Positions 48,592 through 63,759 of a stretch of DNA of 63,759 bases are shown here, piece by piece. This stretch comes from an uncultured Eubacteriales bacterium (GTDB lineage: Bacteria; Bacillota; Clostridia; Christensenellales; Aristaeellaceae): NCBI GenBank assembly GCA_902765735.1, contig CACXBB010000011.1, forward strand, positions 1-63,759. The letters are read 5' to 3'. The position numbers were made by a program, and so were the translations under genes. Under the pieces are notes generated by a model. It had not been told where the DNA came from and did no database searches. It saw only the letters and a list, made by a program, of their open reading frames with translations. Positions within the stretch are counted from its first letter, which is position 1. Each line of letters opens with the position of its first letter.

Positions 48592-48661
48592 GCTTCCTGA
48601 CAACATGGACAAACGTCAACCCCAAACCGTGTTTACTGATATTTTATCACAGATATTGCGG

Positions 48662-48690: not shown

Positions 48691-48723
48691 GGTTATATCT
48701 GTTTATTGTCGGAGGAAAGAGCC

Positions 48724-50448
48724 ATGCCCATGGACGGACTGACGCTGGGCCTGATCGCCCGGGAGCTGAGCAGCGCGCTGGTGGGGGGCCGCATTGCGAA
48801 GGTGGTGCAGCCGGAGCGGGACGAGATCATACTGACCGTCCGCAACAACGGCGAGAACCGCCAGTTACTGCTGTCCGCCACGGCCAACTGCGCCCGGGCG
48901 CACCTGACCCGTGTCAAAAAGAACAACCCGCTGGAGCCGCCGGCGCTGTGCATGCTGATGCGCAAGCACATCGTGGGGGGCCGGGTGGCGGCGATACGCC
49001 AGATCCTCGCCGACCGCATCCTCGAAATCGAGATCGAGCACCGCGACGAGCTGGGCGACCCCGCCCGCAAGAGGTTGATTTGCGAGTTCATGGGCAAGCA
49101 CTCCAACCTGATCTTCGTGGACGAGGGCGGCAGGATCATCGACAGCGCCCGCCGGGTCAACGACCAGATCTCCTCGGTGCGCGAGGTGCTGCCGGGGCTT
49201 CGGTACGAACTGCCCCCGGCCCACGGCAAGCTCGACTACGACGCGGTGACCGCCGACGCGCTCTACGCCGCCATGGCGGGCATGAACGGCCGGCTGCACA
49301 AACTGATCGCGCAGACCGTCAGCGGCATGTCCACCCAGACCGCCCGGGAGCTGGCGTTTCGCGCCACGGGCAGCGAGGAGGCGCACTCCGACGAGATCGA
49401 CCTGCGCGCCTGCTGCGCAAGCATCGCGGACAATCTACGGGCCATCCCCGGGCACATCGCCCCGGCGGTGCTGCTGGACGAGACCGGCGCGCCTGCGGAC
49501 GTGGTGGCCTTCGAGTACCGAAGCCGCGCCCACCTGCGCGCGGAGCCCTACCCCACCATCTCCGAGGCGGCGGACGCCTTCTACCGCACCCGGGACATGA
49601 ACGAGCGCATCCAGCAAAAGAGCGCCGCCATCCACCGCACCCTCAAGAAGAACATCGAGCGCCTGGAGCGCAAGCTGGCGCTGCAGCGGGAGGCGCTGCT
49701 GGGCAGCGAGCGCATGGAGGAGTACCGCCTGAAGGGCGAGCTGCTCACCGCCAACCTGCACCTGGCACAGAAGGGCATGAAGTCCGTGGACCTTCCGAAT
49801 TACTACGAGCCGGACATGCCGCTTCTGACCGTCGAGCTGGACGAGAAGCTGTCCCCCGGCCAGAACGCCCAGAAGTATTTCAAGCTCTACCAAAAGGCCC
49901 GAAACGCCAAGACGCTGGCGGCGGAGCAGATCGAAAAGACAAGCGCGGAGCTCAACTACCTGGAGGGGCAGATGGACAACCTGTCCAAGTGCCGGGAGGA
50001 ATCGGAGCTGTTCGAGCTTCGGCAGGAGCTGGAGAAGTTCGGCTACGTGAAGCCCAACCGCAGCCGCCGGCAGCTAAAGCAGCTGCCGCCCTCGAAGCCC
50101 ATGAAGTTCACCGCCCCCTCGGGCCGGGTGGTGCTGGTGGGCAAGAACAACCTGCAAAACGACAAGCTGACCTTCACCGCCCAGCCCGACGAGGTGTGGC
50201 TGCACGCCAAGGACATGCCCGGCTCCCACGTGATCATCGTCGATCCGAACCCGGACGACGCCACCATCGGCTGGGCCGCGCGGCTGGCGGCGGCGTACTC
50301 GAAGGGCGGCGCGTCCTCCCGGGTGCCGGTGGACTACACCCTGAGACGCTATGTCAAAAAGCCCGGCGGCGCGAAGCCGGGGTTCGTGATCTACACCCAC
50401 CAGCGCACGCTGTCGGTGGAACCCTTGAAGATCGAGCCGGACAGATAG
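48724..50448 (+). CDS. rqcH: Rqc2-homologue RqcH (NFACT / FbpA family)
   Basis: The ATG at 48724 has GGAGG 8 bases upstream; 574 residues. The NFACT-N domain (about 1-180), a helix-hairpin-helix region, a coiled coil (about 290-440) and NFACT-R with EVWLHAKDMPGSHVIIV are complete. RqcH binds stalled 50S subunits and adds C-terminal alanine tails. Older annotations call it fibronectin-binding protein. DUF1836 follows. Confidence 0.94.
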   Translation: MPMDGLTLGLIARELSSALVGGRIAKVVQPERDEIILTVRNNGENRQLLLSATANCARAHLTRVKKNNPLEPPALCMLMRKHIVGGRVAAIRQILADRILEIEIEHRDELGDPARKRLICEFMGKHSNLIFVDEGGRIIDSARRVNDQISSVREVLPGLRYELPPAHGKLDYDAVTADALYAAMAGMNGRLHKLIAQTVSGMSTQTARELAFRATGSEEAHSDEIDLRACCASIADNLRAIPGHIAPAVLLDETGAPADVVAFEYRSRAHLRAEPYPTISEAADAFYRTRDMNERIQQKSAAIHRTLKKNIERLERKLALQREALLGSERMEEYRLKGELLTANLHLAQKGMKSVDLPNYYEPDMPLLTVELDEKLSPGQNAQKYFKLYQKARNAKTLAAEQIEKTSAELNYLEGQMDNLSKCREESELFELRQELEKFGYVKPNRSRRQLKQLPPSKPMKFTAPSGRVVLVGKNNLQNDKLTFTAQPDEVWLHAKDMPGSHVIIVDPNPDDATIGWAARLAAAYSKGGASSRVPVDYTLRRYVKKPGGAKPGFVIYTHQRTLSVEPLKIEPDR

Positions 50449-50464
50449 AAGGGAGATGGGAGCC

Positions 50465-50947
50465 GTGGCCCCCGGATTTCAGGAAATCAACGCCTTTGCG
50501 CCCGTGCCCTGGGAGCAGATCCCGGACCTCGGGCTGTACATGGATCAGGTCATCACCTTCATCGGGCGCATCTACCAGCCGCTCTACGGCGCGGACATGA
50601 AGAAATACCTGTCCCCCGCCATGATCAACAACTACGTCAAGAGCCGCCTGATCCCCCGCCCCGCGGGCAAGAAGTACAGCCGGGAGCAGATCGCGCTGCT
50701 GATCATGATCGTGGCCTTAAAGCAGGTGTCCGCCATGGAGGAGATCCGCGCCATGCTGGCCCTGCGGGAGGGCCAGACAGTTGAGGCGCTCTACACCGCC
50801 TTCTGCAACCGGTTCAGTGAGGTGATCCACTCGCTGCGCGTCGATGATGCCGACCCCCTGGACGCCGCGCTGGATTTCGCCATACTGGCCTCCGGCTTTC
50901 GCGCGGGCTGCGCGGCGGCGCTGAGCGGAGAAGTGGTGGAAGGCTGA
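50465..50947 (+). CDS. DUF1836 protein with a MerR-like helix-turn-helix
   Basis: A GTG at 50465 is preferred because GGGAG lies 9 bases upstream; an ATG at 50456 is too close to it. The 160-residue product has YLSPAMINNYVKSRLIPRPAGKKYSREQIALLIMI, reminiscent of MerR-type binding helices, then an all-helical C-terminal part. Members are thought to be regulators, but targets are unknown. It follows rqcH by 16 bases and ends at a strong hairpin. Confidence 0.82.
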   Translation: MAPGFQEINAFAPVPWEQIPDLGLYMDQVITFIGRIYQPLYGADMKKYLSPAMINNYVKSRLIPRPAGKKYSREQIALLIMIVALKQVSAMEEIRAMLALREGQTVEALYTAFCNRFSEVIHSLRVDDADPLDAALDFAILASGFRAGCAAALSGEVVEG

Positions 50948-50952
50948 TAAAG

Positions 50953-51002
50953 CATGACAGGGCGGGCTGAATCCCTCGGGGATTCGGCCCGCCCTGTCAT
51001 GT
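50953..51002 (+). terminator. Strong hairpin after DUF1836
   Basis: CATGACAGGGCGGGCTGAAT and its complement form an almost perfect 22-bp stem with a 4-base loop; only TTT follows. Confidence 0.8.
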
Positions 51003-51057
51003 TTCGCGTCCGCGCTGCTTACAATTACGTCAGATCAATCGCAATGCGGAGGCGGAC

Positions 51058-52167
51058 ATGAAGCGAATCGCGCTGGTGCTGATACTGATGCTGATGATGC
51101 CCGGGGCGTCGGCCTCGGAGGCGCTGACGGTGGCCGCCAAGGGCGCGGTGCTGATCGACGCCGCCAGCGGGCGGGTGCTGTTCGACCAAAACGCCGACGC
51201 CCAGTACCCCATGGCCTCCACCACCAAGGTGATGACCACGCTGTTGGCGCTGGAGAACGCGGCGCTGGACGAGACGGTCACCGCGGGCAAGAACGCCGCC
51301 GGGGTGACGGGCACGTCGCTGTACCTTTCCGAGGGCGAAAAGCTGTCCATGGAGCACATGCTCTACGGCCTGATGCTTCGAAGCGGCAACGACGCCGCGG
51401 TGGCGGTGGCGGAGCACGTCGCGGGCAGCGTGCCCGCCTTCGCGAAGATGATGAACGCCCGGGCCGCCGAGCTCAACGCCGACGCCCACTTCGTCAACCC
51501 CCACGGCCTGGACGCCGACGGCCACAAGACCTCGGCGCTGGGGCTGGCGCGCATCATGCGGGAGGCCATGAAGAACGAGACCTTCCGCACCATCACCGGC
51601 ACGAAGCGCAAGGTGATCCCCTGGGTGGGCAACGAGTACAGCCGGGTGCTGGAGAACAAGAACAAGCTGCTGAGCACCTACGAGGGGGCCACCGGCGGCA
51701 AGACCGGCTATACAAGCAAGGCGGGGCGCTGCCTGGTGTTCTCGGCGAAGCGGGACGGGCTGGAGCTCATCGGCGCGCTGCTCAACTGCCCCACCTGGTT
51801 CGACACGGCCACCGCCATGCTGGACTACGGCTTCGACAGCTTCCGGCTGGAGCAGGCCTACGCCCCCGGGGAGGTGGTGCGGGCGCTGCCGGTGCTCAAC
51901 GGCATGGACCGGGCGGTCAACGTGGCCGCGGCGGAGGGGCTCTCCGGTGCGGTTCGCATCGGCGCTCCGGTGGACGTCATGGTCACCCTGCCCGACCAGG
52001 CCGAGGCCCCGGTGCGCGCCGGGGACATACTGGGCACCGCCGCCATCAAAAGCGACGGCGGCGTGATCGCCCAGTGCAATCTCGTCGCCGTCAACACCGT
52101 GGAAAAGCTGGACATCCGCCAGGCCTTCAGGCGCCTGCTTCGGAACTGGACGCTGCTGTTTCGGTGA
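51058..52167 (+). CDS. dacF: D-alanyl-D-alanine carboxypeptidase (DacF type)
   Basis: The 369-residue penicillin-binding protein has a signal peptide (1-20), the SxxK motif MASTTKVM (Ser about 53), SGN (RSGNDAAV), KTG (GGKTGYT) and a C-terminal PBP5-like beta domain. It trims pentapeptides in the wall; in sporulating species DacF acts on the spore cortex. GGAGG stands 5 bases before the ATG. Its last 41 bases overlap the convergent WG-repeat gene. Confidence 0.94.
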   Translation: MKRIALVLILMLMMPGASASEALTVAAKGAVLIDAASGRVLFDQNADAQYPMASTTKVMTTLLALENAALDETVTAGKNAAGVTGTSLYLSEGEKLSMEHMLYGLMLRSGNDAAVAVAEHVAGSVPAFAKMMNARAAELNADAHFVNPHGLDADGHKTSALGLARIMREAMKNETFRTITGTKRKVIPWVGNEYSRVLENKNKLLSTYEGATGGKTGYTSKAGRCLVFSAKRDGLELIGALLNCPTWFDTATAMLDYGFDSFRLEQAYAPGEVVRALPVLNGMDRAVNVAAAEGLSGAVRIGAPVDVMVTLPDQAEAPVRAGDILGTAAIKSDGGVIAQCNLVAVNTVEKLDIRQAFRRLLRNWTLLFR

Positions 52168-53431
52168 CCGGCCACGTCTTTAGCGCGTTGCCGTCGAGGT
52201 CCGCGAAGATCACCGCGTCCCCCGTGATCAGCACCAGCCGGTCGTCCCCCGCGGGCAGTATCGCGTCGTATTCCGCGCTCAGTATCCCGCGCCCGTCCGC
52301 GGAGATCAGGCCCCAGCGCGCGCCGTCGTAGTCCCAGTCCGCCTGAGACCAGGCGTATTCTGACGCCCGCCGCCCGAAGGTCATGAAGGCGTAGCGCCCG
52401 CCGCACAGCGGGAGGATGTATTGATACGACGCCGCGGCGGCGCTGCCGTCGGGATTCATCACATACTGGCACGCCTCGCCCCATTCCCCTTCGGAGATGA
52501 TCACCTGCCCGTCCAACCCCGGGGTGTACAGCGTGCCTGCGGGGCCTTCGTGCAGGCAGGTCCCGGCGGCGTCATAGAGATAAGCTGTATCCCCGGACCG
52601 TATCGCTATGTATGCGCCGCAGACCTCAACGGCGTCGGCCCTCACGGGGACTGTGAACCGCACTTCGGACCCGTCGGCGGCGTACACGTCCGCCCGGCCC
52701 TCCGCGTCCAGCCCGACGATGATGCCCTCGCCCCGCCGCATCCATATATAGCGCGGCGACACGACGACCTGCCCCTGCGCGTCGATGAGCCCCATCTCCC
52801 TGCCGTCGGACACGATGGCGACCCCCTCGGCAAAGGGGCCCGCCCAGCGCCATTCAGGCGGGATGACCTGCCGCCCCCGACCGTCCACGTAGCCGTACTG
52901 CCCGTCCGAGAGCATGAAGGGCATACGGCCGTCGCGAAAGGCGTGCAGGCCGTCGGCGGTGAAGCTGCCAGTGGTGAGCCGCGCGCCGTCGGGGGTGACG
53001 CAGATCATTTCGTCCGGCAGGTCGTCGTAGATGTCCCCCTCCAGCGCCAGGAAGGCCCCCTCGCCCGCATAGGTGAGCTGGGCCCACACCGGCGGGATGA
53101 GCGCCCCGCCGTTTAGATCCATCGCGCCGTAGAGCCCGTTCTGCCGGTAGAGCACCGCGTCCTCCACGGCCTCCAGCATGTCGAAGCGCTCCGCGTTCAC
53201 AGGCTTCCCGGAGGCGTCGTAGAGGCCGTAGCTGCCCACGGTGCCCAGGGCGTACAGGGCGCCCGGCTTGACGGCAAACGCGCTGTCCGCCGCCGGTTCG
53301 CGCACGACCTCCACGCCGTCATGATCCACCAGCGCGGCCACCCCCGATACCTGCACCGCGTAGAGATTCTGGGCCCGCGCGCCCGTCATGAGCATCAACG
53401 CCAGCATCACAGCGGCGATCCTTCCAGCCAT
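52127..53431 (-). CDS. Secreted WG-repeat protein
   Basis: The 434-residue protein has a signal peptide (1-20) and a series of WG-type beta repeats (GSYGLYDASGKPVNAERF, NGLYGAMDLNGGALIPPVW, GQYGYVDGRGRQVIPPEW, MGLIDAQGQVVVSPRY, ARWGLISADGRGILSAEY), which build a propeller-like or solenoid fold. No catalytic site is seen. AAGGGG lies 6 bases before the ATG. It is convergent with dacF, and the two share 41 bases of coding sequence in opposite strands. Confidence 0.85.
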   Translation of the reverse strand: MAGRIAAVMLALMLMTGARAQNLYAVQVSGVAALVDHDGVEVVREPAADSAFAVKPGALYALGTVGSYGLYDASGKPVNAERFDMLEAVEDAVLYRQNGLYGAMDLNGGALIPPVWAQLTYAGEGAFLALEGDIYDDLPDEMICVTPDGARLTTGSFTADGLHAFRDGRMPFMLSDGQYGYVDGRGRQVIPPEWRWAGPFAEGVAIVSDGREMGLIDAQGQVVVSPRYIWMRRGEGIIVGLDAEGRADVYAADGSEVRFTVPVRADAVEVCGAYIAIRSGDTAYLYDAAGTCLHEGPAGTLYTPGLDGQVIISEGEWGEACQYVMNPDGSAAAASYQYILPLCGGRYAFMTFGRRASEYAWSQADWDYDGARWGLISADGRGILSAEYDAILPAGDDRLVLITGDAVIFADLDGNALKTWPVTETAASSSEAGA

Positions 53432-53505
53432 CGCAAGCCCCCCTTTCGTTGATGATCCATTATAACATCATAAGGTAAAATGTTGGTTTATTTGATCAGC
53501 GGATA

Positions 53506-53534
53506 TAGACAAAATCGTCAAAAGATGCTATAAT
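53506..53534 (+). promoter_or_regulatory. Promoter of the tRNA cluster
   Basis: TAGACA-17-TATAAT, 43 bases before tRNA-Arg. Confidence 0.75.
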
Positions 53535-53577
53535 TACTTACTGTCGGCGGGAACTGTTCTCCCAGACGTCTCAGACT

Positions 53578-53654
<77 letters not shown>

Positions 53655-53659
53655 GTTAT

Positions 53660-53737
53660 GGTGGGTATAGCTCAGTTGGTTAGAGTGCCAGGTTGTGGCC
53701 CTGGAGGTCGTGGGTTCGAGCCCCACTACTCACCCCA
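53660..53737 (+). tRNA. tRNA-His (GUG anticodon)
   Basis: GTGGGTA pairs with TACTCAC; the preceding G at 53660 can serve as the G-1 opposite discriminator C; loop TTGTGGC with GTG; CCA is encoded. Confidence 0.96.
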
Positions 53738-53765
53738 TTTTTTTGATTGGCGGCCTTTTTTATAT

Positions 53766-53840
53766 TGGGGCGTAGCCAAGCGGTAAGGCACGGGACTTTG
53801 ACTCCCGCATTCGCAGGTTCGACCCCTGCCGCCCCAGCCA
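53766..53840 (+). tRNA. tRNA-Gln (UUG anticodon)
   Basis: TGGGGCG pairs with CGCCCCA; loop CTTTGAC with TTG; CCA is encoded. Confidence 0.96.
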
Positions 53841-53844
53841 ACGC

Positions 53845-53917
53845 GCTCCATTAGCTCAGTCGGTAGAGCACCTGACTTTTAATCAGGGTGTCCGGGGTTC
53901 GAATCCCCGATGGGGCA
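53845..53917 (+). tRNA. tRNA-Lys (UUU anticodon)
   Basis: GCTCCAT pairs with ATGGGGC; loop CTTTTAA with TTT; unlike its three neighbours no CCA is encoded. Confidence 0.96.
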
Positions 53918-53928
53918 CTGCGAAATGT

Positions 53929-53956
53929 CCGAAAACTGCGGTTTTCGGGCTTTTTT
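53929..53956 (+). terminator. Terminator of the tRNA cluster
   Basis: CCGAAAAC / GTTTTCGG stem followed by CTTTTTT. Confidence 0.9.
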
Positions 53957-53961
53957 AATAT

Positions 53962-53996
53962 GCAAATGCCGCGGAGGGTCGCTCCGCGGCATTTGC
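53962..53996 (-). terminator. Terminator of the TRAP operon
   Basis: GCAAATGCCGCGGAG and its complement with a 4-base loop, 22 bases after the dctM stop codon; AT-rich sequence follows on the minus strand. Confidence 0.8.
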
Positions 53997-54018
53997 CTTA
54001 TGATGGTATCCGTACCGA

Positions 54019-55308
54019 TCACGGCGTATAGCCCATGGCGATGGGCAGCGCGGTGGTCAGGCCGGGGAAGACGCTGATGCAGATCAGCACGATCACATTG
54101 CAGATCACATAGGGCAGCGCGCCCTTGAAGATGTCGATGATCGGCATGCGGTTGATCTTGTTGCAGGCATTCAGGCACATGCCCACCGGCGGGGTCACCA
54201 GGCCGATGGCGAGGCCGGTGATCATCATCGCGCCGAACTGGAGCGTCGAGAAGCCGTAGCTGTTCATCACAGGAAGCATGATGGGCGTCAGCAGCAGTAT
54301 GGCCGGGGAGACGTCGATGAACGTGCCGATGATGAGTATCAGTATGTCGAACACCACGGCCACGCCCCAGTAGGGCATGTTCAGCGACAGGAAGAAGTTG
54401 GCCACGATCTGCGGCACGTTGCCCATGGTCAGCATCCAGGTGAATATCTGGGTAAAGCCGATGATGATCATGATGGAGGACGATGAGATCAGCGTCTTTT
54501 TGAGCGCCGTCCAGATGTCCGCCCATTTGAGCTCCCGGTAGATGAAGAAGCCCACGACCACCGAGTACAGCACCGCCACGCCGGCGCTCTCGGACGCCGT
54601 GCACACGCCGCCGGACACGCACACGATAATGAAAAGCGGCATCAGCAGCGCGGGGATGCCCGCCAGCACGGCCTTCCAGAACTGCTTGGCGTCGAACTTC
54701 TCGCGGGCGGGGTGCCAGCCCTTGCGGGCGCTGATGATGTAGACCAGCACCAACTGGGTCAGGCCGATCAGTATGCCCGGCACCGCACCGGCCATGAACA
54801 GCGCGCCCACCGAGCCGCCGGAGACCATGGAGTACACCACCATCGGGGTCGAGGGCGGTATGATCATACCCATGGTGGAGGAGGCCACCGTGATGCCCGC
54901 GGAGGCGTCGGCGGGATAGCCTTCCTTCTGCATCGCGGGGATCAGTATGGAGCCCAGGGCGGAGGTGTCGGCCACGGAGGAGCCGGAGATGCCGCCGAAA
55001 ATCATCGAGGCGACGATGTTCACCTCGCCCAGGCCGCCGCGGATGGGCTTCAATATCGCCATGCAGAAATTGATGATGCGGTTGGTGATGCCGCCCACGT
55101 TCATCAGCTCGCCCGCCAGCATGAACAGCGGCATGGCGATCATCAGCTCGCTGTACACGCCGTTCCACACGCGCTGGGGGATCATGGACAGGAACATGGG
55201 GGTGCTCACGGACATGTAGCTGATGCAGGACGCGCCGATGGCGAAGGCCAGCGGTACGCCGATGGCGGCGAACACCACCAGGCCCAGCAGCAGGAAGATG
55301 ATGATCAC
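54019..55308 (-). CDS. dctM: TRAP transporter large permease subunit (DctM)
   Basis: The 429-residue protein has about 12 transmembrane helices and TRAP-type signatures (ELMIAMPLFMLAGELMNVGGIT, GGISGSSVADTSALGSILIPAM, PPSTPMVVYSMVSGGS, TPPVGMCLNACNKI). It imports an organic acid using the sodium gradient together with DctQ and DctP. The start is a GTG overlapping the dctQ stop as GTGA. Confidence 0.94.
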   Translation of the reverse strand: MIIIFLLLGLVVFAAIGVPLAFAIGASCISYMSVSTPMFLSMIPQRVWNGVYSELMIAMPLFMLAGELMNVGGITNRIINFCMAILKPIRGGLGEVNIVASMIFGGISGSSVADTSALGSILIPAMQKEGYPADASAGITVASSTMGMIIPPSTPMVVYSMVSGGSVGALFMAGAVPGILIGLTQLVLVYIISARKGWHPAREKFDAKQFWKAVLAGIPALLMPLFIIVCVSGGVCTASESAGVAVLYSVVVGFFIYRELKWADIWTALKKTLISSSSIMIIIGFTQIFTWMLTMGNVPQIVANFFLSLNMPYWGVAVVFDILILIIGTFIDVSPAILLLTPIMLPVMNSYGFSTLQFGAMMITGLAIGLVTPPVGMCLNACNKINRMPIIDIFKGALPYVICNVIVLICISVFPGLTTALPIAMGYTP

Positions 55309-55826
55309 TTGGCGTCACCCTCCTTTGCTTCGTAGGCGCTGCGGGGCGCGCGGACGGCCAGTATCAGCTTTGCCACGATACACACCGCGGCCAGCGCGCC
55401 GCACACGGGCATGATGCCGTACATGTAGCGCATGGGGATCTCCATGCCCTGGCTGATCTGCATGCCCATCTTCTGGGTGTATTCCCAGGCAAAGCGGGTG
55501 AACACGCAGTCCACCGCCAGCATGATGACGAGTATCAGGCAGCGCACCGCCCGCTTCACGGCAGGGGGCAGCACGTCGTAGAGCATGTTGATGGCCACGT
55601 GCTCGTCCTTGAGCACGTTGAGCCCCAGCCCCCAGAAGGTGGTGAAGGCGAACAGCGTCACGTTGAACTCCGACACCTGCTTCCAGCTCAGCGAGAAGCA
55701 GTAGCGGCAGATGACCGTAAAGATCACCATCACCGCCAAAAGCCCCATCGCCACCGCGCCGATGCCGGTATATATGCTGATGATCCACTCGCCGACGGAC
55801 TTCCTCGGCTTGCCGGTGTCGCTCAT
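55305..55826 (-). CDS. dctQ: TRAP transporter small permease subunit (DctQ)
   Basis: The 173-residue protein has four transmembrane helices, with RYCFSLSWKQVSEFNVTLFAF and GLNVLKDEHVAINML, the usual DctQ segments. It bridges DctP and DctM. It lies between the two other subunit genes, with stop/start overlap into dctM. Confidence 0.92.
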   Translation of the reverse strand: MSDTGKPRKSVGEWIISIYTGIGAVAMGLLAVMVIFTVICRYCFSLSWKQVSEFNVTLFAFTTFWGLGLNVLKDEHVAINMLYDVLPPAVKRAVRCLILVIMLAVDCVFTRFAWEYTQKMGMQISQGMEIPMRYMYGIMPVCGALAAVCIVAKLILAVRAPRSAYEAKEGDAK

Positions 55827-55921
55827 CAGACATCACTATCCTTTCAAAAGATGGTATTTCCTGATACACAAACCGAGGGTCAGGGCATTTGCCCTGATCC
55901 TCGCGCTTGTCCGGGGCCGGA

Positions 55922-56938
55922 TCACTTCGCGGCTTCGACGATGGCCAGCATCTCCTCCAGCTCCTCCTGGGTGCAGATGCCCTCGTCCACGCACTGCTGG
56001 TACACGCCCTGGCAGGCCTCCTGGAAGGCGGCCAGCTCTTCGGCGGAGGGCTCATAGACCTCCGCGCCGGAGTCGATGATGGTCTGCTTGGCGGCGTTGC
56101 TGTTCTGGTCGATCAGCTGGTCGTTGTACTCGCCCATCTCGGTGGCGCACTCGGAGATGATGGTCTGGAACTCCTCGGGCAGGCTGTTCCACCACTGGGC
56201 GTTCACATAGAAGGGATCGGGATGGAACTGATAGTTCACCTCGGTGAAGTACTTCTGCACCTCGTAGAACTTCATGCCCTCGACGTTGACCCAGGGGTTC
56301 TCCTGGCCGTCGGCGACGCCGGTCTTGAGGCCCATGTACAGATCGGCATAGGGGATCGTGGTGGTGGTGGCGCCCAGAGCGATGAAGGTCATGTCGATGG
56401 TCTTCATGCCGTTGGTGCGCATCTTCAGGCCCTCAAGGTCGGCGGGCTTGGTGATGGGATGCACGTTGTTGGAGAACTGGCGATAGCCGCCGGCGTCGCA
56501 CAGGTTGATGATCACGGTGCCGGTGGTCTCCTCAGCCTCGGCGCACACCTTCTTGGCCAGGTCGGACTGCAGAAGCGCGGTGACCTGGGCGCGGGTGTTG
56601 GTCAGGAAGGGCAGGGTGAACATCAGAAGGCGGGGGCTGAAGTCAAACTGGCCGCCGCGCATGCCCTGGGTCACGCCCTGCACGACCTGCTCCAGCATCT
56701 CCTTCTCGGTGCCGAGCTGGCCGTTGCCGTAGACCTGCACGGTCACGTGGCCGTTGGTGCGCTCCGCCACGTCCGCGGCGAACTTCTCCATCGAGACCCA
56801 GCGGGGATTGCCCTCGGGCTGGGCGTGGCCGACGATCATGGTGAAGTTGCCTTTATCGGCAAAGGCGTCCTCGGCCAGAGCGCTGAAGCAGCAGAGCGTC
56901 AGCATGGCGACGAGCATCAGGGCAAGCAGTTTTTTCAT
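55922..56938 (-). CDS. dctP: TRAP transporter solute-binding protein (DctP)
   Basis: The ATG at 56938 follows GGAGG; 338 residues with a cleavable signal peptide (1-22, LTLCCFSALA). Family landmarks are GHAQPEGNPRWVSMEKFAADV, GNGQLGTEKEMLEQV and the substrate-clamping arginine in LEGLKMRTNG (about residue 180). The ligand is probably a C4-dicarboxylate or other small organic acid, not determinable here. A promoter (56995-57023) precedes it; it is the first gene of the operon. Confidence 0.94.
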   Translation of the reverse strand: MKKLLALMLVAMLTLCCFSALAEDAFADKGNFTMIVGHAQPEGNPRWVSMEKFAADVAERTNGHVTVQVYGNGQLGTEKEMLEQVVQGVTQGMRGGQFDFSPRLLMFTLPFLTNTRAQVTALLQSDLAKKVCAEAEETTGTVIINLCDAGGYRQFSNNVHPITKPADLEGLKMRTNGMKTIDMTFIALGATTTTIPYADLYMGLKTGVADGQENPWVNVEGMKFYEVQKYFTEVNYQFHPDPFYVNAQWWNSLPEEFQTIISECATEMGEYNDQLIDQNSNAAKQTIIDSGAEVYEPSAEELAAFQEACQGVYQQCVDEGICTQEELEEMLAIVEAAK

Positions 56939-56994
56939 GGGTGATTCCTCCTCATTTTTTGACAAATGCCAATCAGGCTTTGCCATTTGAGGCT

Positions 56995-57023
56995 ATTTTA
57001 CCACATTTCAACCCCGAAGGCAA
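56995..57023 (-). promoter_or_regulatory. Promoter of the TRAP operon
   Basis: On the minus strand TTGCCT-17-TAAAAT, 56 bases before the dctP start. Confidence 0.6.
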
Positions 57024-57072
57024 CCAATATATTTAATTTATTGATGTCGATTCTGTCACAGTTTTTACATCA

Positions 57073-57101
57073 TTGACATCGTGGCGGTTTCCATCTATAA
57101 T
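57073..57101 (+). promoter_or_regulatory. Consensus promoter of the SdpI-like gene
   Basis: TTGACA and TATAAT, both perfect, with a 17-base spacer, 33 bases before the start codon. Confidence 0.85.
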
Positions 57102-57134
57102 GGTCTGTGAGATTTGGCGATACGGAGGCAGTTT

Positions 57135-57794
57135 ATGGAAAACCGGCGTCGCAGGCGTTTGACCCTGCCGATCCACACGCTCTACGTCGCGTGCCAGTAC
57201 CTCGGCGCGTGCGCGGTGTGCCTGGGCTATCCCGGCGTGGGCGACTTTGCCCGGCTCTGGCCCGGCGGCCCCGCGATGCCCCGGCCCGTCATCATGCTGT
57301 GGCCGCTCGCGCTGCTCACGGCGGACCTCATGCTGGACCGCACCTGGCTGCGCGCCTATCGCCTCGACCTGGCGGAGGGCCCGGGCCACGGGCACGGCCT
57401 GCACCGCAGGACCCTGGAGGCCCTCGCCGCGCCGGTGCTGTTCATACTGGACGTCGTCGCCATACTCGCCGTGCTCGCCTCCCAGCGTGAAAACGCCGCA
57501 TACGACGCGCAGGTCCGGCTGCACACCGCCGCCATGGCCGCGGGCATCGCGCTGTGGATCTACGGGCGCGCGCTGCCCCGCATCCGATATAAGAGCGTCT
57601 GGGGCCTGCGCACAGCCGCCGCGATGCGGAGCGTGCGCAACTGGGGCGCCGTCCACCTGAAGGCCATGCCCGGAGCCTGCCTGTGCGGGGCGCTGTGCCT
57701 CGTCGCCGGGACATTCCTCTCCCCCATCCCCGCCCTTTGCACCGCCGCCGCCCTGCTGGTCGCTGCGTTTGTGTTCATGTTCACCCGGAAATAA
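57135..57794 (+). CDS. SdpI-like polytopic membrane protein
   Basis: The ATG at 57135 has GGAGG 6 bases upstream; 219 residues with about six transmembrane helices. The segment GRALPRIRYKSVWGLRTAAAMRSVRNWGAVHLKA matches the SdpI/YhfL C-terminal motif (GxxxPKIKxNxxxGIRTxWT...W..TH), though the final Thr-His is Val-His. SdpI proteins confer immunity to the SdpC toxin or sense it; no toxin gene is seen here. The promoter is unusually perfect. Confidence 0.7.
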   Translation: MENRRRRRLTLPIHTLYVACQYLGACAVCLGYPGVGDFARLWPGGPAMPRPVIMLWPLALLTADLMLDRTWLRAYRLDLAEGPGHGHGLHRRTLEALAAPVLFILDVVAILAVLASQRENAAYDAQVRLHTAAMAAGIALWIYGRALPRIRYKSVWGLRTAAAMRSVRNWGAVHLKAMPGACLCGALCLVAGTFLSPIPALCTAAALLVAAFVFMFTRK

Positions 57795-57891
57795 AAAAGA
57801 TTATCCCCTCGCCCGGAATAGGAAACACATGCAGAAAAGATGTATTCATGGTAGAATAGCCATAGAGCGCTCGCTGTGGAGGCATTGATCC

Positions 57892-58734
57892 ATGGAAATC
57901 AATAATGAATATCTCAATGCAAGATACCACGAAGAGGATCTGCAAAGACTGCGCGGCTTCCGACCCATCGATGATACCTTCATGCGCTGTCTCTTCCACG
58001 ACAACCTGCCACTGGCACAGTTTGTGCTTCACATCATTACCGGAAAACCGGACCTGATACTGACGCACGAGGAAACGCAAAAGGATCTGAAACGATTGCT
58101 CGGCACGCGTTCCCTGTGTTTGGACGTTCACGGCATAGACAGCGAGAACAGGGAATATGACATGGAGATCCAGCGGGCGGACATCGGCGCTCGTCCCGAA
58201 CGGGCAAGGTATCATTCCGCCGCCATGGACATCGAAGCGCTCAATGCGGGACAGGAGTTTGAAGACCTTCCCGAAACCTACACGATCTTTGTCACTGAAA
58301 GCGACTTCTTCGGGAAAGGCGTCGGGCTCTACCCCATCGATAGAATGAATCTTGCCACAAATACACCTTTTAACGACCGGGAACACATCCTCTATGTGAA
58401 CGGTCAGTATCAGGGAGAGGACGACTTGGGGAAGTTGATGCACGATTTCCTGTGCAGCGACCCCGACGATATGCACTTTGACATACTGGCGGAAAGATCA
58501 CGTTATTATAAGGAGAATCCGGAGGGGGTTAGCGAAATGTGCAAGGCCATGGAAGACATGCGCAATGAGGCGCTGGAGAGGGGACGCATTGAAGGGCGCG
58601 CAGAAGGGCGTTTGAATAATATGATCGAGTCCGTTCGGAGCCTGAAAGCCAAGCTCGGCCTTTCTGACCAGCAGGTGAAGGATGCCCTCAGTATCTCCAA
58701 CCAGGATTGGGAACAGATTGCCGTTAAGGTATGA
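57892..58734 (+). CDS. Rpn/PDDEXK-family transposase-like nuclease
   Basis: The 280-residue protein has DDTFMRCLF near the start, the nuclease core LDVHGID...REYDMEIQRAD (Asp and Glu-x-Gln of the PD-(D/E)XK fold), RARYHSAAMD, and a helical C-terminus with a GRIEGRAEGR repeat. This is the Rpn (recombination-promoting nuclease) or PD-(D/E)XK transposase family. GGAGG lies 9 bases before the ATG. GC content is lower than in its neighbours, and it borders the accessory region, so it may be acquired. Confidence 0.85.
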   Translation: MEINNEYLNARYHEEDLQRLRGFRPIDDTFMRCLFHDNLPLAQFVLHIITGKPDLILTHEETQKDLKRLLGTRSLCLDVHGIDSENREYDMEIQRADIGARPERARYHSAAMDIEALNAGQEFEDLPETYTIFVTESDFFGKGVGLYPIDRMNLATNTPFNDREHILYVNGQYQGEDDLGKLMHDFLCSDPDDMHFDILAERSRYYKENPEGVSEMCKAMEDMRNEALERGRIEGRAEGRLNNMIESVRSLKAKLGLSDQQVKDALSISNQDWEQIAVKV

Positions 58735-58769
58735 TATTTCCAACAATCTGAACGATCAGCAGGACAGAG

Positions 58770-58807
58770 AAAACCCCCGACAGGTCTTGAGCCATCGGGG
58801 GTTTTGA
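58770..58807. terminator. Terminator between the Rpn gene and the rpsI relic
   Basis: AAAACCCCCGA / TCGGGGGTTTT with T-tracts on both strands. It would serve the Rpn gene and, on the minus strand, looks like the original rpsI terminator, 8 bases after the relic's stop codon. Confidence 0.9.
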
Positions 58808-58814
58808 TTTCTCC

Positions 58815-58865
58815 TTAGCGCTTGGAGAACTGGGGCGCGCGACGGGCGGCCTTCAGGCCGTACTT
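58815..58865 (-). other. Attachment site: duplicated 3' end of rpsI (ribosomal protein S9)
   Basis: On the minus strand these 51 bases encode KYGLKAARRAPQFSKR and a stop, the C-terminus of ribosomal protein S9. Resemblance to S9 ends abruptly upstream (MPV instead of the Arg/Lys-rich run). No rest of rpsI is present. Directly inside lies the dyad CTGGC-GTTCGAT-GCCAG (58868-58884), like an integrase core site, followed by an integrase remnant at 58972. This is the pattern left by an integrative element that uses the rpsI 3' end as its target. Confidence 0.85.
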
Positions 58866-58971
58866 GACTGGCATCGAACGCCAGAACCCCTGGTATTACA
58901 GGCTTTTCGAGCCATACGGGAATTTTTCCCCCAGAATTTAACCACCTGTCGGAAACCCCGAAACGAAGTCG

Positions 58972-59670
58972 TCACTGCTCATCCGGCTGGGATGTAGTCG
59001 CGACAGCCTCACCGTTTGTAAAAGCGGCATCCACAACAGCCAGCAACTGTTCTGGTTTATTATACTTCACTTTTGCATAAATGTCCATAGTAATTTTGCT
59101 GTTTTCGTGACCCGCCAAATACTGAACCGTCTTCGGATCAACACCCGCATGAATGAGATTCGTAATATAGGTGTGTCGCAGCAAATGCGGACTAACATCA
59201 AAGTCAATGCAGTATACGATCTTCGGACGATTGGAGCACTTCTCTCCTGTTTTCGGCTTAAACTGCTTCTTGATAGCGTGGCCGTTGACATATCGATAGA
59301 TTGTTCGCTCCCTGGTACTCCTAATCGTAATATACCTCCATATTCTCTGGAACTGCGATGCGGACAGTGGTTCGCCTTTGTTGTTTGAAATTACGTATTT
59401 TGATGTTGATCGTTCATTTTCTGCACTCAAGCAGTCCACAAGGCATTTCGGAATCGGGATATCCCTTCTTGCTGCCTTCGTCTTCAAATCCGTCGTAACG
59501 ACCGGCCTGTTATGATCTGGATGCCACGCTCTTCGAACTGAAATATACGGAACAGCTCTATCCAAGAAAACACAATCCCATTGAAGGCCTAATATCTCCT
59601 CCCGTCTCAATCCCGCATATAGTCCTATCATAACAAAGAGATATGGTGGAAGATCACGGATTGTTTCCAA
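58972..59670 (-). pseudogene. Truncated tyrosine integrase, catalytic domain only
   Basis: The 232 residues hold the catalytic domain: GLRREEILGL (Arg), PHLLRHTYIT (His-x-x-Arg), GHENSKITMDIYAKV (His and Tyr nucleophile). The SAM-like core-binding and arm-binding domains of a 370-400 residue ICE integrase are missing. The reading frame continues upstream only to about 59691, where it joins an unrelated ATPase fragment. The listed start is a TTG without a ribosome binding site. It belongs to the adjoining rpsI attachment site. Confidence 0.85.
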
Positions 59671-59686
59671 AAGCAGTTTTACCTGC

Positions 59687-59971
59687 TCATCGCGCCGCGC
59701 TGAAGGGCGCCTCCAGGTTGATGGTCAGGTATTCGCCCACGCGCACGCCGTTGACCACGGTGCCGACGTACAGTGAGCCGGATTCGTTCTCCGTGTCGAT
59801 CACGCACAGCTTCTCCCAAATGTCAGCCTCCGCCATGCTGGGATGCGCCGCTTTGATGAGCCCGTACCCCAGCAGCAGGGAGCTCAGCGTCTTTCCACTG
59901 CCGGAAGGTCCCGCGATGCCCAGCTTGAGCTTCGCCTATGATCGTTTTGCCTTGTGAATCTGGATTGCCAT
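59687..59971 (-). pseudogene. Remnant of a phage/ICE AAA ATP-binding protein with an in-frame TAG
   Basis: The ATG at 59971 has GGAGG upstream. Codon 12 is TAG (59936-59938), after which the same frame reads AKLKLGIAGPSGSGKT (Walker A) and continues to GVRVGEYLTINLEAPFSAAR before a stop at 59687. The intact family (AAA ATPases near single-strand annealing genes in phages) is more than 200 residues long, so this is both nonsense-mutated and truncated, fused at its 3' side to the integrase fragment. Confidence 0.85.
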
Positions 59972-60340
59972 ACTGTTGTCCTCCTTTTCGTTCTGAGGTG
60001 CTTACTTACCCCTCTATCTATAGAGGGACACAGCGGAGGGATTGAAATTGCAGAAATCGATGTTAAACAATGATTAAATCCAAATCCTCGCTCTGCTGTT
60101 GTTTTGACAAGCATTGCGGATTATAGCATACATTCTTTTGAGTGACAATGAGCTTTTTTTGACCAACGGTCTGACGTCTGCGTCCCATGCCACGACCAAA
60201 GCTTATTCTGTTGAATCTATTTCAAAATCTCAAAGGCATATACTTGAAACCAAGAACAATCTCATCTTGTCTGTAGTGTATGCGGAACTATATGAAAATT
60301 CGATCGTCTAAAATGCAGAATTCACGAAAGGGATGATCGC
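59972..60340. other. AT-rich stretch without a recognised gene
   Basis: The only signals are the dyad CCCTCTATCTATAGAGGG (60009-60027) upstream of the ATPase remnant and an isolated TTGACA near 60105. A 65-codon open frame (60114-60311) has no ribosome binding site and no resemblance that I can name. Confidence 0.5.
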
Positions 60341-60661
60341 ATGAACAGGTTTATTCCAAGGGAGAAGCTAAGCAAGAAGGCCCGTAAGAAACTCGACAGC
60401 GAAAAGCGCGCCGGTTGGACGTTCTCACCCGTATCCAGAAGAGTTGAAAGCAAAAAAGTGTACAGCCGCAAAGGAAAATCCCATGACCGTTATAATGATT
60501 ACGGGCATGGGATTTTTTATGGAAGATTGCCCTTCTGCGTTATGAAGGAACATGCGCTTCCGTCCGTGACACACTCAATGTCGCCGGAAATATCTGTCCT
60601 CAGAATTGTAACGCCGGCATCGCGCAGTCTGGACAGCACTTCCTCTGAGGGGTGCCCATAG
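60341..60661 (+). CDS. Small conserved protein of mobile elements, altered 3' end
   Basis: The ATG follows AAAGGGATGATCGC. The first 65 or so residues are very basic (MNRFIPREKLSKKARKKLD...RAGWTFSPVSRRVESKKVYSRKGKSHDRYND), a sequence pattern I associate with short hypothetical proteins next to phage/ICE genes of Firmicutes. The remaining 40 residues are read from the antisense of the neighbouring metallo-beta-lactamase gene, and a hairpin (60475-60518) lies inside the frame, so the 3' end is probably not original. The function is unknown. Confidence 0.6.
   Translation: MNRFIPREKLSKKARKKLDSEKRAGWTFSPVSRRVESKKVYSRKGKSHDRYNDYGHGIFYGRLPFCVMKEHALPSVTHSMSPEISVLRIVTPASRSLDSTSSEGCP
60475..60518. terminator. 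Hairpin with T-tracts on both strands
   Basis: AAAATCCCATGACCGT / ACGGGCATGGGATTTTTT. It covers the stop codon of the convergent MBL gene and lies inside the frame of the small basic protein. Confidence 0.75.
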
Positions 60662-61365
60662 CTGTTGTCAGACCCGACGCTTATGATTGCGTATGTCGGC
60701 ATGACCGCACGCAGAAACACATAAGAACTGCTGGTATCGCTGCCGTGATGGTTGACGTGCAAAACATCTGCCGACAAATCGACGCCTGTCTCTACCAGAT
60801 CATGCTCCGCCTCCCATTCAGCGTCGCCCCCAAATAGAAAACGGACATCACCATAGGTAATCCTGCATACAATAGACATATCGTTGCTGTTTGCGTAATT
60901 CCGTATGGGACCGAGTATAACCACGCTTGCCGTTCCCACCGAAAAAGTGTCACCCGGAGACGGAATGACAATGCGCGTATCCTGCTTCCGGGCATATTTC
61001 ATCAGGGATCTAAAAGCCTTAGAATCATACTCCAAGACGGAAGTGTAGAGCACATCGACAGTACAGGCATTCAGCGCTGCCGCCAGCCCTCCCACGTGAT
61101 CCTCATGTGGATGCGTCGCGATCATGTAGTTGATATGCCGGATTCCCAGCGTATTGCGGAGATATGCGTATATCAGGCGGGAATCGGCTGCGTTTCCGCC
61201 GTCGATCATTAGGACCTCATCGTCACAGATGATGATCGTCGCGTCAGCCTGACCGACATCCAGGAAGTAAAGGCGCATAAGTCCTTCAGCCCAACCACCA
61301 CCAGGGTGAAGCATCCCCGCGGTCAGCAAAAGGATAATCACAAGAATTCCCAGTCTTCTGCTCAT
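60517..61365 (-). CDS. Secreted metallo-beta-lactamase-fold protein, ComEC-C-like
   Basis: The ATG at 61365 follows GGGAG; 282 residues. A signal peptide or anchor (1-28) precedes an MBL domain of the ComEC/Rec2 C-terminal group: LYFLDVGQADATII, MIDGGNAADS, ATHPHEDHVGG (HxHxDH), FLFGGDAEWEAEHDL, VLHVNHHGSDTSSS, GHPSEEVLSRL. Such stand-alone proteins are exported hydrolases, possibly nucleases. It is divergent from an XRE regulator, with a dyad in its promoter. Confidence 0.87.
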   Translation of the reverse strand: MSRRLGILVIILLLTAGMLHPGGGWAEGLMRLYFLDVGQADATIIICDDEVLMIDGGNAADSRLIYAYLRNTLGIRHINYMIATHPHEDHVGGLAAALNACTVDVLYTSVLEYDSKAFRSLMKYARKQDTRIVIPSPGDTFSVGTASVVILGPIRNYANSNDMSIVCRITYGDVRFLFGGDAEWEAEHDLVETGVDLSADVLHVNHHGSDTSSSYVFLRAVMPTYAIISVGSDNSYGHPSEEVLSRLRDAGVTILRTDISGDIECVTDGSACSFITQKGNLP

Positions 61366-61406
61366 TTCACGCTCCCGTGCCTGTTCATGATCCCAACAGC
61401 CAATAC

Positions 61407-61435
61407 ATAATAGCATATATCTATATGCGTTTCAA
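61407..61435 (-). promoter_or_regulatory. MBL-gene promoter with an operator-like dyad in the spacer
   Basis: TTGAAA-17-TATTAT on the minus strand. The dyad GCATATATCTATATGC (61413-61428) fills the spacer, between the two divergent genes, as expected for a site bound by the XRE protein. Confidence 0.6.
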
Positions 61436-61496
61436 GTCGTTACTATTATACATCCTGATATGGAAGTAAAATGTTCATAGAAAGGATGGTGGTGCT

Positions 61497-61811
61497 ATGG
61501 ACATTCACGCCCGCCTTCACCAGCTCCTGATGGAGCGAGGCTGGACAGAATACCGACTCTCAAGGGAATGCGATTTGGCACAGACCACCATCGGGAATAT
61601 CTTTCGACGGAATACAATGCCGTCACTGGCCACACTGGAGACCATCTGCAAGGGATTTGGCATCAGCATGTCACAGCTTTTTGCCGAAGAAGAAATGGTA
61701 GAACTTACGCCCGAGCTGAAAGAGCTGTTCGATTGCTGGATAGCCCTGGCGCCCGAACAAAAGAAGGCAGCTCTGGCGATGTTAAAGGCCATGAATCACG
61801 ATTCTCTTTGA
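61497..61811 (+). CDS. XRE-family transcriptional regulator
   Basis: The 104-residue protein has an N-terminal lambda-repressor-like helix-turn-helix (LHQLLMERGWTEYRLSRECDLAQTTIGNIFRRNTMPSLATLETICKGFGISMSQLFA) and a short helical tail. AAAGGATGG precedes the ATG. It probably controls itself and the divergent MBL gene through the dyad between them. It ends 18 bases from the convergent recombinase gene. Confidence 0.9.
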   Translation: MDIHARLHQLLMERGWTEYRLSRECDLAQTTIGNIFRRNTMPSLATLETICKGFGISMSQLFAEEEMVELTPELKELFDCWIALAPEQKKAALAMLKAMNHDSL

Positions 61812-61829
61812 TAAAGGTCTGCTTTTCCT

Positions 61830-62756
61830 CTACTCTGCCAGCATACTCGCATAACTCATGCTGTTCACCGCCGCCCGCCGTTCCTCCGGTGTCGTATGCA
61901 GATAGTTGTTGGTAATCGCCACGCTGCTGTGTCCGCCGAGGTCGCGGGCCAGCGCGGCACTGCCGTTGGAGTGGTGATCCACATCGGAGAGGAAGGTGTG
62001 GCGGAAGCGGTGGACGCCGGTATCGAGGCCAAGCTCCCGCTGCTTGCTGGCGAAGGACTTCCACAGGGCATTGCGCGTCATGCGATTGCCCTTCTGGGAG
62101 ACGAACAGCGGGGCGTCAGGGGCGCATTTGCCGCGGAGCAGCAGGTATCGCTGAACGTGGGGATAGACGAAGCTCGCGACATTGACCTCTGACATCTCCC
62201 CGCCCTTGCGCTTGCAGCAAACGACGCCATTCTGAATATCGCGCAGCTGGCAGATGTTCAGGTTGCACGCCTCCGAAGCCCGCATGCCGCTGCCGAGGAT
62301 CAGGGCGATGATCGCGAGGTCACGGTAGTCGGTCAGACGATCGGACCCATTCTCCAGACGGTCCAGCAGCGCCGCAATCTGCTCGGCGGAATAGACCTTC
62401 TCCTGCGCCTTCGCCAGCTTCTGCCGCGCCTTCTTGTCCTTCACGCAGCGCAGCACCCGGGAAGCATCCTCGGGCACCTTGTTCAGCCTTGCCAGATAGT
62501 CGAAGAAACGATGCAGGATAACGACATAGTTGTTCCGCGTCGGCACGCTCAGCCCGCGCGCGTACAGTTCCTGGTAGTATTCGCTCAGCATGACGGCGGT
62601 GACCTCCGGGACGTGCGCCTCGGTCAGGGACAGGCTGTAGCGCTCGCCCAGCCACTTCTCAAAGCGGCTCAGCTCCTCGCCGTAGTGCGCCAGCGTCTCC
62701 GGCGACTTTTCCTCCGCGGCGAGTTGGTTCAGGAAACGCTCGATCAGGTTTGTCAT
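61830..62756 (-). CDS. Tyrosine recombinase (XerC/D-like)
   Basis: The ATG at 62756 follows GGAGGAG; 308 residues. The N-terminal SAM-like domain (about 1-90; FLNQLAAEEKSPETLAHYGEELSRFEKWL) and the catalytic domain are complete: GSGMRASEACNL (Arg), VHRFRHTFLSD (His-x-x-Arg), GGHSSVAITNNYLH (His, Tyr). It is codon-rich in GC, unlike the degraded integrase at 58972, and may serve this or another mobile unit. The Cys-rich fragment lies just upstream on the same strand. Confidence 0.9.
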   Translation of the reverse strand: MTNLIERFLNQLAAEEKSPETLAHYGEELSRFEKWLGERYSLSLTEAHVPEVTAVMLSEYYQELYARGLSVPTRNNYVVILHRFFDYLARLNKVPEDASRVLRCVKDKKARQKLAKAQEKVYSAEQIAALLDRLENGSDRLTDYRDLAIIALILGSGMRASEACNLNICQLRDIQNGVVCCKRKGGEMSEVNVASFVYPHVQRYLLLRGKCAPDAPLFVSQKGNRMTRNALWKSFASKQRELGLDTGVHRFRHTFLSDVDHHSNGSAALARDLGGHSSVAITNNYLHTTPEERRAAVNSMSYASMLAE

Positions 62757-62769
62757 GGTGCTCCTCCTC

Positions 62770-62903
62770 TCAGTGCTCGTTGAAAACCACGGATTCACCG
62801 CGCTTCAGGTCCCAGCAACTCATGCCTGTGGCGACGCAATCGCCGCAGTAGGACGGGCAACGGCGGGCGTCTGCGGGAATGTCCGTGGATACCTTCTTGA
62901 AAC
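62770..62903 (-). pseudogene. 3' fragment of a Cys-rich small protein cut by IS66
   Basis: On the minus strand the frame reads KVSTDIPADARRCPSYCGDC, then VATGMSCWDLKRGESVVFNEH, and stops 13 bases before the recombinase start. It has no start codon, since the IS66 end (62904) replaces the 5' part. Five cysteines, arranged CxxYCGDC and MSC, suggest a metal-binding protein. I do not recognise the family. Confidence 0.65.
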
Positions 62904-63759
62904 GTAACTGTTCAGTCTACCCCGAATAATACTCCAACAGCCATACCCCGGAATGCGGCAACGATGGCATCAAAAGAAGAGACGCCATGAAGAGCCGCCG
63001 AGGAAATGAAGCTGAGGACACGCGCGAAATCATCTGCGCCGGATTTGGTGCGGAAGCAGCCGGAAACCTTCTCCTTGACCCTTGCGCAGCGAATCGCCCG
63101 TGGCTGGAGGCTTCGCTGCAGTTTCAGCGGTATTGTTGGTATAGGGAACGCGCCAATCCCTCGCAAATCTCAGGATGTCATCCTTGAAGTCGCGGAAGCG
63201 CTCCAGAAGACACCTGAATTTGCCTTTGGCCTTGGGACCGCGTTTTCCGGGAGTGCGCTCCGGAATGGGATTGGCGGCAAGCCCCTCGTCGACCAGTCTG
63301 TCGTAGCGTTCAAGGTAACCCGCCAATTCCTGCTCCGGGAAGACTTCTTTCCCTTCGGATTGAAGCACCTTGCGACGATGGCACAGGGTTTGCAGCAACT
63401 CCCGCAGCAGCCCGGCCCAGTCCTGGTTGCCGGTCTCATGGGCGTAGACCAGTTCCCGCTCCAGGTGCGCGCAGCACATGGCATGATCGACATTGGCGTA
63501 CTTCTTGTAGGGCATCCAGAAGTCATGCACCGCCACGCCGCTGGCGTTCGGCAGCACGCCCATATCCGTGATGCCCTCCTGGCCGCGCTTTTCCTGTACG
63601 GTGTAATAGCGCCACTGCTCATTGCAGGCGCAGTGCAGCCAATGCAGCTTCCCGGCGACGCGCCAGCCGGTCTCATCATAGTGGGCGACCGGCAACTGGG
63701 TTACCGTCTGGCGGATGCGTTCAACAGGTGCCTTTACCAGATTTGCGGCTTTGACCAGC
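62904..63759. mobile_element. IS66-family insertion sequence, right part outside the window
   Basis: The element starts with GTAACTGTTCAGTC, the GTAA end typical of IS66, immediately beside the transposase stop codon, and runs off the right edge. The other end and any 8-bp target duplication are not visible. Confidence 0.8.
62912..63759 (-). pseudogene. IS66 transposase (TnpC), interrupted by a 22-bp insertion; 5' end outside the window
   Basis: The frame enters from the right edge (VKAPVERIRQTVTQLPVAHYDETGWRV), carries DFWMPYKKYANVDHAMCCAHLEREL and RDWRVPYTNNTAE, then shifts. The sequel RAIRCARVKEKVSGCFRTKSG, continuing ADDFARVLSFISS, lies in the +1 frame. Removing 22 bases (63101-63122) restores the family's NNTAERxxRxxKxKxKVSGCFR motif exactly. 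The interrupted part follows the last catalytic motif. Confidence 0.85.

Follow-up and report, generated by a model that had tools for sequence, protein, structure and literature searches.

The S9 tail stub and its empty site

The window analysed here is the whole of contig C11 (63759 bases) in the 73-contig draft genome G000 of an uncultured Eubacteriales bacterium, and near its right-hand end begins an island that is inserted at the 3′ end of rpsI, the gene of ribosomal protein S9. On the minus strand, bases 58865-58815 encode the last 16 codons of rpsI and the stop (KYGLKAARRAPQFSKR-stop; as DNA, AAGTACGGC...CGCTAA), and the DNA preceding this stub (attR) is unrelated to the body of the gene, as the first-pass annotation, made from the sequence alone, had noticed. 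That annotation also predicted an intact rplM-rpsI pair beyond the right edge of the window. The pair does exist, on the minus strand and with the same 51-base end save for one mismatch; it lies on another contig, C15, the window being a contig in full. The intact rpsI (C15:6004-6366) neighbours rplM and is the sole S9 gene found in G000 by the Pfam model. A DNA search of G000 with window bases 58740-59020 returned two places only, the stub and the end of the C15 gene, which differ at one of 51 bases (TCC in the stub, TCG in C15). The rpsI end is thus directly repeated at both junctions (51 bases, 1 mismatch), which are on separate contigs.

The same locus was compared across the genus (n=28 genomes, G000 included). 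With window bases 58700-58920 as the query, 21 genomes match, and besides G000 only G004 matches from the query start through the tail (91% over window bases 58700-58865). In G004:C36, window bases 40857-58865 and C15 bases 5956-20419 are joined at an intact rpsI with 87-95% identity, and the stub equals the G004 tail at 51/51 bases. On the window side, 40857-58814 is collinear with G004 in blocks of 88-95% identity, so before the insertion rpsI was immediately followed by this flank; on the other side, C15 from base 5956 follows G004 from rpsI onward to at least base 20419 (92% and 87%). Since both flanks meet at rpsI in G004, G000 carries an insertion at the 3′ end of this gene, and G004 represents the empty site, the close relative without the island for which the first-pass annotation had proposed to look. 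Its assignment of the left 58.7 kb to the chromosomal flank holds from 40857 rightward; left of this point, 1.4 kb of G004 was compared and gave no match. Within the flank, window bases 57793-58366 are missing from G004. They form the first part of a PD-(D/E)XK transposase-like gene beside the stub, only the end of which is left in G004. As for the intact gene on C15, it does not stand without an adjacent element: after it come the repeats, the gene of a 65-aa regulator and a block of redox genes that is shared horizontally.

It was initially assumed that the 51-base copy at 58815-58865 was the element's own. Comparison across hosts points the other way: the stub is probably the host's original, displaced tail, and the working gene on C15 probably wears the tail of the element.

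A further reading of the stub is that an element, on entering an unrelated secondary site, brought an S9 tail copy with it, in which case the left flank would never have lain beside rpsI. Such a case may exist in G023:C176 (L076 7246-7296), where an S9 tail with 10/51 differences stands without an S9 body; no integrase was noticed beside it by eye, a coupling-protein gene (PF02534) follows about 5 kb on, and the tail is perhaps the end of an integrative and conjugative element (ICE) at a secondary site. For the window this reading is hardly credible, since G004 joins the very same flank to rpsI.

Signals at the two ends of the island

A terminator was expected after the stub, and folding indeed reveals a hairpin at 58770-58805 (minus strand) with 14 pairs and -21.4 kcal/mol (z -4.45; 1/200 shuffles folding as well). 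It is probably the terminator of the original rpsI, with near-identical sequence standing after rpsI of G004. The rpsI end of the island bears its own hairpin of -19.2 kcal/mol (0/200 shuffles as good). A simple terminator scan found no terminator, probably because the U's lie inside the stem. With a hairpin at both ends, transcription of rpsI would still end properly.

The dyad noted in the first pass is CTGGC-N7-GCCAG at 58868-58884, next to the presumed crossover. It was read by eye (its 5-base arms fall below the 12-base minimum of the inverted-repeat search), and it is possibly a core-binding sequence of the integrase. Further on, the minus strand of 58924-58945 bears the repeat GTGGTTAANNNNTGGGGGAAAA, a candidate integrase arm site. 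This is the single match in the window even at 3 mismatches (0 in 100 shuffles), and two more copies are located beside the intact rpsI on C15. A looser form of the pattern is absent at the element ends of Anaerotruncus and L282, and GTGGTTAANNNNTGGGGGAAAA may belong to the element variant of this genus. A repeat search of 58700-60200 returned four inverted pairs, all of them weak, and not a single direct repeat.

The arrangement recurs on a single contig of another genome of the genus. G023:C5 carries the stub, the dyad and the repeat (89% over 304 bases, at window 58764-59064), with 60 bases beside the stub identical to the window, and an intact rpsI 6.3 kb on. Only the end of the integrase is left there (residues 193-231 of the window protein), and the genes of the island, named by eye, are SnoaL-like, Rrf2-like, flavin/ferredoxin, sirtuin-like and nitroreductase-like, with a small regulator beside rpsI.

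The truncated integrase and its relatives

The Pfam scan covered eight open reading frames (ORFs) of the window between 57892 and 63758 and seven genes of C15. It confirmed the integrase catalytic domain (PF00589) at 58972-59700 on the minus strand, where only the catalytic half of an rpsI-type tyrosine integrase is present. The protein aligns to residues 171-402 of a full-length reference from G027, a 403-aa protein with an open frame that lies beside a stub in G027:C89; the first 170 residues of the reference are unmatched in the window. This truncation fits the earlier description of the element as decayed.

The best 80 of 255 confirmed integrase relatives in named genomes were kept; they are 67-78% identical to the window protein over 213-232 residues. 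When up to 4 substitutions were allowed in the stub search, an S9 stub was found to adjoin the integrase on the same strand at 76 of the 80 loci, starting 85-208 bases beyond the matched integrase stretch. Among the remaining four, the sequence of L163 ends 83 bases past the integrase match, and in L171, L175 and L182 the tail is altered or missing. At 68 of the 71 loci with at least 1.7 kb ahead of the stub-side integrase match, two full-length integrases stand in tandem, and these pairs (loci L115-L194) belong to one tyrosine integrase family. Tandem integrases at rpsI are not described in the titles and abstract openings listed by a literature search, which does not prove that no such description exists.

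That the joint of unrelated pieces might be an artefact of assembly is suggested by the draft state of the genome, in 73 contigs, and by the joint of integrase and ATPase sequence near 59700, which did not turn up a second time in the search of the 28 genus genomes. Against this, the joint of stub, arm repeat and integrase recurs in G023, the order of stub and integrase is that of the 76 named loci, and the left flank meets the stub collinearly with G004, which makes an artefact very improbable.

No close relative of the integrase was found elsewhere in G000 (four other matches, E 5e-8 or worse), and with the island's own integrase truncated, self-excision is unlikely. The idea that the short protein is a conserved mini-integrase, common to the window, L128/L282 and L117, was rejected because the break points differ (residues 171, 152 and 138) and because the query itself was a catalytic half. 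A different tyrosine integrase of 430 aa (26% identity) points at rpsI in G005:C9 (L034 16801-18259), and the rpsI tail of this genome differs from the stub at 9/51 bases; perhaps a second integrase type uses the same rpsI site in this genus.

The probable site of exchange

Alignment of the stub side in 24 named copies that share one integrase-side flank allows the switch from element to host DNA to be followed column by column, with column 0 at the first base of the tail. In columns -100 to -1, 34/2400 letters are minor ones, in columns 0-1 there are none (0/48), in column 2 there are 9/24, and in columns 3-7 again few (2/120). Beyond this point variation rises to 170/1032 in columns 8-50 and 581/960 in the 40 columns past the stop, and every one of the 24 stubs is different. 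Further upstream, the ungapped comparison of columns -400 to -101 gives 707/7200, a count probably inflated by indels. From the passage of element-constant to host-variable letters, host DNA seems to set in at about column 2 of the stub. The exchange would thus fall within about columns 0-7 of the tail (AAG TAC GG), in the window at 58865-58858 on the minus strand, with AAGTACGG as the putative interval.

The gene side was approached through rpsI itself, which was searched for in 22 genomes with integrase-stub loci and was present in 21. Only pairs with at most 40/120 differences after the stop were considered, and seven pairs have at most 5/120. Two of them are identical both in tail columns 3-50 (0/48) and after the stop (0/120), with bodies that differ at 22/120 (L271/L273) and 17/120 (L266/L267) bases. 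The bodies of L261/L268 differ at 69/120, the tails at 0/48 and the sequences after the stop at 5/120; the respective values are 54/120, 1/48 and 0/120 for L268/L272, and 33/120, 1/48 and 5/120 for L261/L272. In the two pairs that involve L265, the counts are 15/120, 3/48 and 0/120 (with L266) and 5/120, 3/48 and 0/120 (with L267). Five of the seven pairs support a tail that travels with the element, while the two L265 pairs are not clear.

Stub and gene were also compared within genomes, in 22 pairs, of which the genus supplied 3 and the set of 22 named genomes 19; L118, which has no rpsI match, and L175 and L182, which have no stub, were left out. Columns 3-7 and 33-36 show zero differences in all 22 pairs and are separable only by comparison across hosts.

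Mosaic interior and cargo

Next to the integrase, the minus strand of 59690-60188 holds a fragment of an AAA_24 phage-type ATPase gene and sequence upstream of it, 94-95% identical in DNA to G007:C43 and G023:C175 (the G007 protein matches PF13479); the phage-type ATPase remnant of the first-pass annotation is thereby substantiated. In all three copies of this frame (window 59687-59970; L255 8650-9753; L256 2011-3114) an in-frame TAG stands shortly before Walker A, and two long frames in L256 likewise continue across TAG. The phage from which the ATPase came may read TAG as an amino acid.

A small ORF at 60341-60661 (plus strand), first described as a mobile-element protein, has no Pfam or PHROG match. 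Its type recurs in the genus, where the 28 genomes contain 14 stretches that match 60329-60523 at 70-80%. The ORF is followed by a metallo-beta-lactamase-fold hydrolase at 60517-61416 on the minus strand (PF00753) and by a Cro/C1-type regulator at 61497-61811 on the plus strand (PF01381, PF13443), both with relatives of 66-71% in G004:C29. In a PHROG search of five ORFs the hydrolase matches a 'tail protein' family (4.9e-52, profile positions 621-886 of 1077), and an unknown PHROG family scores better. The second recombinase was correctly called: it is a tyrosine recombinase of 322 aa at 61830-62798 (minus strand), with an open frame and both domains (PF00589, PF02899), and it is 94-95% identical to a piece of G007:C43; it also occurs in G008:C9, about 0.9 kb from rpsI. 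Thus, the ATPase and recombinase pieces each resemble parts of one phage-like G007:C43 region at 94-95%, and the middle differs. Capsid, portal, terminase and tail genes were not found by Pfam in the eight window ORFs, the middle of the island being an assembly gap. The IS66 element likewise proved real: a transposase gene of this family (62905-63759, minus strand, PF03050) runs off the contig end, and one other copy in G000 is partial and 94% identical (C7:69272-69648).

At the opposite end, the C15 genes near rpsI encode a Crp-type regulator, a ferredoxin, a DUF2249 protein, a cupin, a 2-hydroxyacid dehydrogenase, a flavodiiron-type protein with lactamase and flavodoxin domains, and the 65-aa HTH_26 regulator, which adjoins rpsI in seven genomes with 95-100% identity. 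C15 bases 96-5656 are 96.4% identical to G007 over 5561 bases, as against 87.9% for the adjoining rpsI-rplM, which suggests that the block moved between species after the core genes had parted. In G007 no stub was found within the 25.9 kb from rpsI to the contig end. The first 95 bases of C15 (L005, left end) begin with short repeats of the form GTGAGGCTATTTC-CCGTGA. They may mark the end of a further insertion sequence, in which case the break of the contig at this point would be accounted for.

Proposed history of the island

Very probably, an element of the type that enters rpsI at the 3′ end was integrated there by its tyrosine integrase, exchanged the tail of the gene and then decayed to a cargo-bearing mosaic. 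The exchange would have taken place at the 5′ edge of the tail (Lys115-Tyr116-Gly117), as judged from the 24 named copies and the 21 rpsI genes. The attP of the element would have carried its own 16-codon S9 tail and terminator, and after integration the essential gene would run into the tail of the element, with the old tail and terminator of the host stranded at the far end, at what is now 58770-58865. Decay would then have left the phage ATPase piece, the small ORF, the hydrolase with its regulator, the phage-type recombinase and IS66, and the redox block beside rpsI on C15 would have been retained as cargo.

Several observations weigh against this history, or against parts of it. C11 and C15 are separate contigs, the former ending in IS66 and the latter beginning with repeat-like bases, and the sequence between their ends has never been seen. 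The scanned parts yielded no relaxase, coupling protein or VirB4. The two ends may also stem from separate insertions, as the cargo block is accompanied by another arm sequence in G007. As to the tail, L265 differs from L266 and L267 at 3/48 tail bases despite identical sequence after the stop, and L265/L267 shows no contrast between body and tail (5/120 vs 3/48); it is possible that in some cases the exchange occurs further inside the tail. In the 22 pairs, the stub and the gene of one genome differ chiefly at the third positions of codons, a sign that the 51 bases are also under constraint from the protein. For the G000 copy itself, the case for tail replacement depends on a single base: the stub and G004 read TCC, C15 reads TCG. 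Since G001, which has the arm type of C15, reads TCC and G006 reads TCT, simple mutation may account for TCG, and the support from it is weak. Finally, five other rpsI genes of the genus (L027, L028, L033, L077, L078) match the stub at 51/51 bases.

Some of these points would also agree with a stack of at least two elements at rpsI, whose stub end and rpsI end stem from different insertions and between which several decayed elements have accreted. The cargo beside rpsI is 96% like that of G007, yet the type of arm sequence differs; another integrase (430 aa, 26% identity) lies beside rpsI in G005, whose tail is 9/51 off the stub; and in 2 of the 22 pairs (L151/L265, L128/L278) the 9 bases after the stub are those after the working gene, as a tandem insertion predicts. 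Accretion at rpsI, rpmG or rplL has been reported in streptococci, according to the available text of PMC5357655. Conversely, the arm repeat, in which 18 bases are specified, stands in exact form at both ends in G000, and only one stub and one rpsI end were found in this genome. Stacking is possible, if somewhat doubtful.

What began as a 51-base stub has become an insertion that is mapped at both junctions and against an empty site. Should the crossover lie where it is mapped, the tail of an essential gene is replaced by the element, not merely flanked by it. On a broader scale, it seems fairly likely that the last 16 codons of S9 travel between species of gut and rumen Clostridia on a widespread family of elements with paired tandem integrases, each insertion swapping the S9 tail and terminator, and that decayed elements fix a foreign tail and leave a cargo island. 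The L265 pairs and the distribution of TCC and TCG count somewhat against this proposal.

Comparison with known integrative elements

The 3′ end of rpsI had been named in the first pass as a known target of ICEs, and this is in print for streptococci and for Roseburia hominis, as far as the accessible portions of the sources go. The streptococcal target is used by ICEs and by integrative and mobilizable elements (IMEs), with direct repeats and accretion of decayed elements (available parts of PMC4701971 and PMC5357655). A decayed ICE is defined in the accessible text of PMC4701971 as one with one or two defective signature genes or with one end missing. Among the eight ORFs of the window and the seven genes of C15 that were scanned, none was recognised as a relaxase, coupling protein or VirB4 gene, the middle of the island lying in the assembly gap. 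The island of G000 is not called a decayed ICE here: conjugation genes were not seen in it, which is not the same as seeing them defective.

At least one intact member of the family looks like an ICE on account of its conjugation genes. In Anaerotruncus massiliensis AT3 about 56 kb separate rpsI from the stub, and between them lie a relaxase (PF03432), a coupling protein (PF02534) and a VirB4-like ATPase, the last called on weak matches (DUF87 above and AAA_10 below the cut-off). In Flavonifractor sp. AGMB03687 a relaxase likewise lies between rpsI and the stub. Elements of this kind, with AT3 as an example, share with the island of G000 the stub on the same strand as the integrase; they differ in that nearly all of them have two full-length integrases, whereas G000 keeps part of one. 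A closer parallel is Oscillospiraceae bacterium RGIG6917 (L282 492-10692), where the integrase is likewise cut (match to residues 152-397 only) and metabolic genes lie in the roughly 10 kb between rpsI and the stub. There, tricarboxylate transporter-like genes, named by eye from the translations, take the place of the redox genes of C15, and perhaps this island represents parallel decay with cargo kept. The combination of an S9 stub with this integrase can serve as a simple marker for the ends of integrative elements in Clostridia, gut species included.

Among described elements, ICE_RhoA2-183_rpsI, a putative ICE in rpsI of Roseburia hominis, is alike in being inserted into rpsI in gut Clostridia, and a similar region is reported for Dorea formicigenerans (PMC12904643, in its available text). 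It is described there as an ICE and not as decayed, unlike the island of G000, and the likeness drawn here is that of the insertion site. The ICEs and IMEs of streptococci, including IMESag-rpsI (PMC5090054, in the part accessible), share a tyrosine integrase, the 3′ end of rpsI, direct repeats and accretion with decayed elements; they come from another bacterial lineage than G000, and they are likened to it here by site and features. Insertion at rpsI is thus an ordinary kind of event, here unusually clear, and the island of G000 is a decayed example of the already known integrative elements of the rpsI 3′ end.

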